Virus record (IMG/VR): IMGVR_UViG_3300030328_000901
Coordinates: 1 to 21,092 of that record
Source of the DNA: a virus
Strand: one strand, 5' to 3'
Length of the DNA stretch: 21,092 nt
The notes beneath the pieces are model-generated. The model was given only the letters and a program-made list of their open reading frames with translations. It did no database searches and was not told the DNA's origin. A program made the translations under genes and the position numbers. Each line of letters starts with the position of its first letter. Within the stretch, counting starts at the first letter, position 1. Positions 211 to 1,369 of the stretch are shown here, in pieces.

Positions 211-903
211 TTAAAAAGGTTTGTACCAAGGTTTCTCCTTGGGTGGGGTGTTTTGTTTAATATAAGAAGCGATAGATACAATGTCAGAACACATAGTATA
301 AAAAGGAGATTTAGGATGAATCATAAAACCCTTTTGCTGTAACTCAGCACATTTAAGTGCTCTAACTAACTCATAATCTAAACGCATCTTTTCTTCCTGT
401 CTTGCTGCTATGCGTCTACACTGCTTTAATCCACGTTTATCTAAAGGTACCATAAAGTTAATTTGAAAACCATAGTTCTCATTCTCTACGTAAGCTTCAG
501 GGTCATGTGGCTGTGTATTATTACCCATATAAAATGGGCTAAACGTCATAGTAGAGCCGTTACAACTTATATTAGGACCATAATGCTGCCTAGACGGTGC
601 TCCATTATTCTGGAATTGCACCGCCTGATTGGTTACATTACCTGTCGCAGCTGCAACTGGATTTGAGGTGTTTTGTACCTCTGGCTCACTTGCCAGTGCT
701 GGACTTCCTACTGTGAGAAGACTGATAAGGACGTAGTAGTAGCGTTTGTTGTGATACTTCTGTCTATGTCTATTGTCTCTACTACAGCTCCTGCTGCTCT
801 GGTTGTTATCTCCAGAGTGAAGGGGTCTCCAGCTGTTGTTACCGAGAATGTAGTCCCACTTCCAGAAACGTCTGCTGAAGGGGTTATATTTTCGCCAGTC
901 CAT
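211..903 (-). CDS. secreted or membrane-anchored marine-phage protein with uncertain start
   Basis: From about residue 55 the protein looks like a signal peptide (YYYVLISLLTVGSPALA, possible cleavage before SEPEV), then a Ser/Thr/Asn-rich part (residues 72-130), then a charged helical part (155-195) with DYELVRALKCAEL and four Cys at 114, 162, 185 and 205. This mature part resembles a hypothetical family I recall from marine cyanophages; its function is unknown. The start is the puzzle. No ATG, GTG or TTG lies near the signal peptide. The only in-frame ATG is at 901-903, giving a basic 54-residue extension whose DNA is also the end of the upstream gene in another frame. A GGAGGA ribosome-site-like motif lies 11 bases before that ATG. 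A frameshift from the upstream gene or a non-standard start is also possible. The stop at 211-213 lies one base before the next start. Confidence 0.75.
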   Translation of the reverse strand: MDWRKYNPFSRRFWKWDYILGNNSWRPLHSGDNNQSSRSCSRDNRHRQKYHNKRYYYVLISLLTVGSPALASEPEVQNTSNPVAAATGNVTNQAVQFQNNGAPSRQHYGPNISCNGSTMTFSPFYMGNNTQPHDPEAYVENENYGFQINFMVPLDKRGLKQCRRIAARQEEKMRLDYELVRALKCAELQQKGFMIHPKSPFYTMCSDIVSIASYIKQNTPPKEKPWYKPF

Positions 904-1067
904 TTAGAGTAAGCTCCTCCAAACAGTTCGTGGTCGATAGTTTCGGTAATAGTTTGTGTGGTGGTCGTGGTCGATTGCATAGAACCCTGTGTAAAATTTG
1001 GGGTTACTAATTCTGCTCTCGCTACCGTGGGTGCCATCAGTATGAGAAATAAACATAACTTCTTCAT
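708..1067 (-). CDS. small secreted marine-phage protein with N-terminal signal peptide
   Basis: The 119-residue protein begins MKKLCLFLILMAPTVARA, a typical signal peptide (two Lys, hydrophobic core, AxA cleavage before Glu19). The mature part is Thr/Ser-rich, predicted mostly beta, and ends TTSLSVFSQ, an ending I recall from a hypothetical family shared by marine cyanophages. No function is known; export to the periplasm or envelope is inferred from the signal. Its ATG overlaps the stop of the holin-like gene (ATGA at 1064-1067). Its last 196 bases are open in a second frame used by, or at least continuous with, the downstream secreted protein. The normal-looking C-terminus argues that this gene is complete and not broken. 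Confidence 0.8.
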   Translation of the reverse strand: MKKLCLFLILMAPTVARAELVTPNFTQGSMQSTTTTTQTITETIDHELFGGAYSKWTGENITPSADVSGSGTTFSVTTAGDPFTLEITTRAAGAVVETIDIDRSITTNATTTSLSVFSQ

Positions 1068-1369
1068 TCGTCTTTTTTCTTAACCATAGGGCAGTTTACT
1101 GGACCTTTGTTTTTGTTATTATTTCCAGTGGTCAAGCCAAATGTCGCAAGTGCTCCCGTAAACACCGAAGCTACGAACGTGATATCACTGTTGCCAGATT
1201 TCTTGACCATAGGTATTTCTACGTAGTTCATCGTAATGATGAATCCACTCCAAACCACAACTCCCAGACGGACAAATGTACCTAAGATTTGGATTTGGTG
1301 TTCTTGATCCTCTGCTGCGTCTTTGAGCTTTCCGAGGAGTCCTTTTTTTTCTTCCTGTTTTCCTTCCAT
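1064..1369 (-). CDS. holin-like small membrane protein
   Basis: A 101-residue protein with a charged N-terminus (MEGKQEEKKG), two likely membrane segments at about residues 28-50 and 62-81 separated by a short loop with EIPMVKK, and a Lys-rich C-terminus. Size, two hairpin segments and charged tails fit class II holins. Such a protein would make holes in the inner membrane at lysis, but this is inference from topology: no endolysin is visible nearby. Its first 29 codons overlap the end of the preceding proline-rich gene by 88 bases in another frame. It could instead be a virion or envelope protein of the same cassette. Similar proteins occur in cyanophages, as far as I recall. Confidence 0.65.
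   Translation of the reverse strand: MEGKQEEKKGLLGKLKDAAEDQEHQIQILGTFVRLGVVVWSGFIITMNYVEIPMVKKSGNSDITFVASVFTGALATFGLTTGNNNKNKGPVNCPMVKKKDE

Follow-up and report, generated by a model that had tools for sequence, protein, structure and literature searches.

Apart from its cyanophage homologues, two kinds of described system come closest to the locus presented here. The Rz/Rz1 spanins of phages lambda and T7 are two exported phage proteins encoded in overlapping frames; in T7 the gene order is 17.5/18.5/18.7/19. In the frameshift genes dnaX and gpG/gpGT, the latter for a phage tail-assembly chaperone, a second frame lies in the −1 register and overlaps the end of the first. The locus that we analysed is contained in a window of 21,092 bases, the whole stretch of IMG/VR record IMGVR_UViG_3300030328_000901 that was studied, and consists of two genes, A and B. 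With Rz/Rz1 it shares two predicted exported proteins in overlapping frames, and with dnaX and gpG/gpGT the −1 position of the second frame at the end of the first. Comparison with relatives makes it highly probable that A and B are two genuine out-of-frame overlapping genes and that B arises by internal initiation at ATG 903, not by frameshift fusion. The features concerned are the following.

1064 to 1369, minus strand: gene C (DUF6450), upstream of A and overlapping the start of A by 4 bases.
708 to 1067, minus strand: gene A, open reading frame of 119 residues with a normal stop and a predicted N-terminal signal peptide.
211 to 903, minus strand: gene B, open reading frame of 230 residues from ATG 903, in the −1 frame of A, with its stop codon at 211 to 213.
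708 to 903, minus strand: dual-coding overlap of A and B, 196 bases.
915 to 920, minus strand: GGAGGA, Shine-Dalgarno-like and not conserved.
901 to 903, minus strand: ATG start codon of B, shared between A's Lys codon AAA, which gives its last base, and A's Trp codon TGG, which gives its first two.
742 to 903, minus strand: basic N-terminal extension of B, 54 residues, ahead of the signal-peptide core.
691 to 741, minus strand: hydrophobic core and cleavage motif of the B signal peptide, YYYVLISLLTVGSPALA, read by eye.

An earlier note, made from the sequence of the window, had described a 196-base two-frame overlap in which A ends at a normal stop after 119 residues, and had given the extension frame as open for 65 codons with ATG 903 as its only ATG. 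All of its coordinates proved right. A check of the open reading frames bore out the rest: the B frame extends over 230 open codons between ATG 903 and its stop, 65 of them within A, and no other ATG, GTG or TTG is present in that frame upstream of the B signal peptide. At the codon preceding ATG 903 the frame is closed, by TAA in the source record, and it is closed there in its closest relatives too. The signal peptides of A and B were recognised by eye, from a conserved hydrophobic core and an A-x-A motif; the core in B spans the end of A, most of it lying within A's last codons and the rest in the bases that follow. Nearly identical contigs from other samples (L002 to L007) show the same arrangement of the two genes, and an assembly or sequence error was therefore ruled out as the cause of the overlap.

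The closest annotated relatives of the source record are T7-like cyanophages such as NATL1A-7, and the A/B pair is present in podoviruses and in T4-like phages of Synechococcus and Prochlorococcus. Homologues of protein B were found in 456 phage records, all from cyanophages or marine phages, T7-like and T4-like, and the same method gave 50 phage records for protein A. A corresponds to PHROG 650 (profile match, E 2e-33) and weakly to Pfam DUF6322, and B to PHROG 848 and 1755 (profile matches, E 3e-54 and 8e-51) and to cyanophage 'gp165'; none of these three PHROGs carries a known function. Cyanophage protein B is also encoded at loci L578 to L592, which carry the labels Flavobacteriaceae, Neomarinimicrobiota, Nonlabens, Chloroflexota and others; these contigs probably come from phages and were either sequenced in those cells or binned with them.

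We then looked at the conservation of the internal start. Several hundred loci were fetched, both genes were located in 415 of them by a first motif search, and dereplication left 256. B was in the −1 frame of A at all 415 loci, and each of the 256 dereplicated relatives had a start codon inside A followed by an open frame up to the signal peptide (ATG in 241). As a null model, the synonymous codons of A were shuffled in the 243 testable genes, and an open −1 frame with a start codon was expected in 32% of them. In the clade of the source record such a frame was observed in 138 of 138 sequences against 12% expected, with ATG as the start in 97% against 7% expected, meaning that in this clade the open −1 frame with a start exceeds chance. 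Applied to the source record alone the shuffle is weak (p = 0.2), and its force comes from the relatives. The −1-frame ATG straddles two codons of gene A, taking its first base from the third position of one and its other two from the Trp codon that follows. Among the podoviral relatives with Ser ahead of that Trp, the Ser codon was TCA in 89 of 102, compared with 28% for Ser at other sites of gene A; P-SSP7-like sequences, which start B further on, had ACT at that codon in 24 of 29 cases. A tally of stop-risk codon contexts was partly circular because the start had been picked from the open stretch, and we relied on the shuffle and constraint tests instead.

The earlier note had proposed that homologues be compared for constraint in both frames. 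When this was done, the synonymous variation of A turned out to be reduced in the overlap. Ahead of the overlap it is near saturation, with an observed/expected ratio of 0.93. The ratio was 0.83 in the extension (p = 0.0012 compared with the pre-overlap part) and 0.69 over the B signal peptide (p = 4e-5), both p values serving as a guide since the sequence pairs are not independent. When stop-risk contexts were left out the two falls persisted (p = 0.021 for the extension and 2e-5 for the signal peptide, again from pairs that are not independent). The column of the B start codon, with a ratio of 0.29, is among the most conserved, and this value is not due to simple relatedness since synonymous variation upstream is near saturation. 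The extension is mildly constrained and mainly kept open, and the signal peptide is strongly constrained. Because the constraint on the extension is only mild, the exact N-terminus of B could differ. Conservation of the ATG, the absence of stops and the synonymous constraint all support true overlapping genes with a B start at ATG 903, one of three explanations that the earlier note had put forward.

Another of the three was a non-standard start near the signal peptide. In that case B would begin at a non-AUG codon, its signal peptide would be short and ordinary, and ATG 903 would be unused. An n-region of 54 residues is indeed unusual, and the roughly 70 residues ahead of the B cleavage site are long compared with bacterial signal peptides, which counts against a start at ATG 903; moreover, in the S-H38 and P-SCSP1 lineages no more than about 30 residues separate the start of B from its cleavage site. 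However, the source record has no ATT, ATC, ATA or CTG in frame between −67 and −37 from the end of A, near-cognate codons of this kind are found in only 59 of 257 sequences, and the conservation of ATG 903 and of the open extension would be left unexplained. We thus hold a non-AUG start to be very unlikely.

As for initiation at ATG 903, the codon is preceded by GGAGGA and then by the 11 bases GCTTACTCTAA. The earlier note had seen in GGAGGA the strongest ribosome-site-like sequence of the record, and had suspected that it might be chance. It is indeed the longest Shine-Dalgarno-like match before any of the 14 open reading frames of the source record. At this site the relatives mostly have GGT GGT (Gly codons), and five or more matching Shine-Dalgarno bases occur in only 19 of 132 of them. 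Since the site is not conserved among relatives, a Shine-Dalgarno function of GGAGGA was rejected; the motif is probably there by chance, and would be at most a local help.

The position of the start differs among lineages. B starts in five columns of A, in 238 of 238 cases on a Trp codon, as expected from the fact that a −1-frame NTG is possible only where a codon of A begins with TG. On a tree of B, for which the part outside the overlap was used, the start position changed at least 11 times. The starts in other lineages lie at −112, −67, −64 and −56/−53 relative to the end of A, and the extension there is shorter or absent. Among P-SSP7-like sequences, an ATG at −67 is accompanied by a TTG at −112 that is often closed, and the sequences without ATG at −67 have ATG or GTG at −112. 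T4-like phages of the S-H38 kind start B at −64, which leaves a signal peptide some 30 residues long. In clade MPP-C (P-SCSP1 and contigs), whose loci were found with a widened motif, separately from the 415-locus search, B is in the +1 frame at 76 of 76 loci and has its own ATG at −56 or −53 followed by a short ordinary signal peptide. The earlier note had held that stops in the extension frame of homologues, or an ATG next to the signal peptide, would speak against the overlap or point to a sequence error. Such cases do occur, in the P-SSP7, S-H38 and P-SCSP1 clades, where they mark a relocation of the start and no error in the source record.

These data also bear on the third explanation, namely that A and B are fused by a programmed −1 ribosomal frameshift towards the end of A. 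The −1 frame of B in most clades is what such a mechanism needs, and A is strongly conserved over its last codons, synonymous sites included; this conservation, however, is accounted for by the signal peptide of B. No slippery heptamer X XXY YYZ is shared in the overlap: among 257 open regions a canonical one occurs in 9, with no common position. The internal start is always present, beyond chance, and every relative examined has its own start codon for B, unlike frameshift genes. Finally, a −1 frameshift cannot produce B in MPP-C, where the gene lies in the +1 frame and begins with an ATG of its own. It is in these respects (no conserved slippery heptamer, an internal start and a frame changed in one clade) that A/B differs from dnaX and gpG/gpGT, and we consider a frameshift fusion extremely unlikely.

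Measured against the predicted start, the public annotation of B is inconsistent and its N-terminus appears truncated in several reference genomes. The annotations of P-HM1 and S-RIM8 already show the A/B overlap (in the T4-like P-HM1, gene clusters 236 and 235 are the homologues of A and B). In P-SSP7, S-SBP1, S-RIP2 and SS120-1, B is annotated as beginning after its signal peptide, as with PSSP7_045 in P-SSP7. In NATL1A-7, gp165 (B) is annotated from 8 bases into A. A literature search found no description, in searchable papers, of the selected internal start of B, of its relocation or of this overlap.

The start of B is ambiguous in the relatives of NATL1A-7, which have a second ATG 8 bases into A. 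A long open B frame with an ATG near the start of A was seen at L082:3009-3893 and at 35 further podoviral loci, belonging to NATL1A-7 relatives and a few other groups. One could thus imagine that B starts a few bases inside the start of A in some lineages, and formerly did so in that of the source record, all of A being dual-coding and the TAA before ATG 903 a secondary shortening. In line with this would be the NATL1A-7 annotation of gp165 and the 36 podoviral sequences whose B frame has an ATG close to the start of A and stays open across almost the whole of that gene. Such a frame is expected in 7% of cases under pooled codon usage, but in 44% when each gene's own codons are used, and the codon ahead of ATG 903 closes the frame in the source record and its closest relatives. 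We give this scenario as a whole next to no chance.

With B starting at ATG 903, ribosomes would translate A from its start at 1067, and other ribosomes would initiate inside A, in the −1 frame, to give B. The first 54 residues of B would form a long basic n-region before a signal peptide of ordinary type, the hydrophobic core of which would for the most part share its bases with the last codons of A; both proteins would be exported. Phage lineages have shifted the start of B along A, each time to a Trp codon, one clade having B in the +1 frame instead. The overlap, the conserved start, the lack of stops, the constraint and the relocation emerge directly from the comparison of relatives, at the level of sequence; from these we infer initiation in vivo, export and processing.

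The protein features were examined with this in mind. The position and A-x-A motif of the B signal peptide are conserved in relatives, the residue after the motif being E, S or Q. B has four invariant Cys, at 114, 162, 185 and 205, which would fit an oxidising compartment. The AlphaFold2 model of A (mean pLDDT 83, pTM 0.39, overall shape uncertain) shows a pair of very long beta strands, each some 22 residues in length, separated by a small beta part, and that of B (pTM 0.40) a single long helix at 156-190. Neither A nor B matched any solved structure in sequence searches. Comparison of the A model with structures (Foldseek, VIA-align) gave weak matches only, to long beta hairpins (best Z 3.8, best E 0.045). 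Pore stems, FliF and the phi29 collar were among them, and matches this weak were not accepted as signs of homology. B had no confident match among solved structures, and its matches among viral models were mainly cyanophage relatives.

In podoviruses the A/B pair follows the small DUF6450 protein, near the terminase genes, and two transmembrane regions are annotated in the P-SSP7 homologue of gene C. In T4-like phages the pair adjoins hli or psbA genes. Other features of this neighbourhood were recorded. Genes D (1282-1725) and C (1064-1369) of the window overlap out of frame by 88 bases, 1282-1369 on the minus strand, and shorter overlaps are annotated at this junction in P-SSP7 and NATL1A-7. 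A putative 2OG-Fe(II) oxygenase (PF13759) is encoded upstream of the gene cluster, at 1722-2249 on the minus strand. In T4-like cyanophages the gene before A (L087:1626-2207, PHROG 564) is weakly related to the A family (PHROG 650, E 4e-4), which suggests a tandem paralogue.

The podoviral setting, a pair near a small protein with two transmembrane regions and terminase genes, recalls that of Rz/Rz1 in T7. The differences are that A and B have no lipobox and no conserved Cys after either cleavage site, that A is predicted to be beta and not coiled coil and has no conserved Cys, and that T4-like phages carry the pair by hli or psbA genes. We regard as unlikely, on this evidence, that A and B form an envelope-disrupting or lysis pair, spanin-like and unrelated to spanins, in which A would be a secreted long beta hairpin assembling in the periplasm or outer membrane and B its disulfide-bonded periplasmic partner, the overlap keeping both as a cassette exchanged between podoviruses and T4-like phages. 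More generally, the conservation of a putatively exported pair in differing genomic settings suggests, with less assurance than for export, that A and B may act together as a phage-encoded module of the cell envelope.

The A/B pair is found in hundreds of marine cyanophage genomes, and the mis-annotated N-terminus of B in several reference genomes would have hidden its export; with the corrected start, B can be expressed and tested correctly. As judged from its relatives, this overlap with an internal start is unusually well documented, and the shifts of the start among the Trp codons of A, together with the change of frame in one clade, form a clear record, in nature, of an overlapping gene moving its start.
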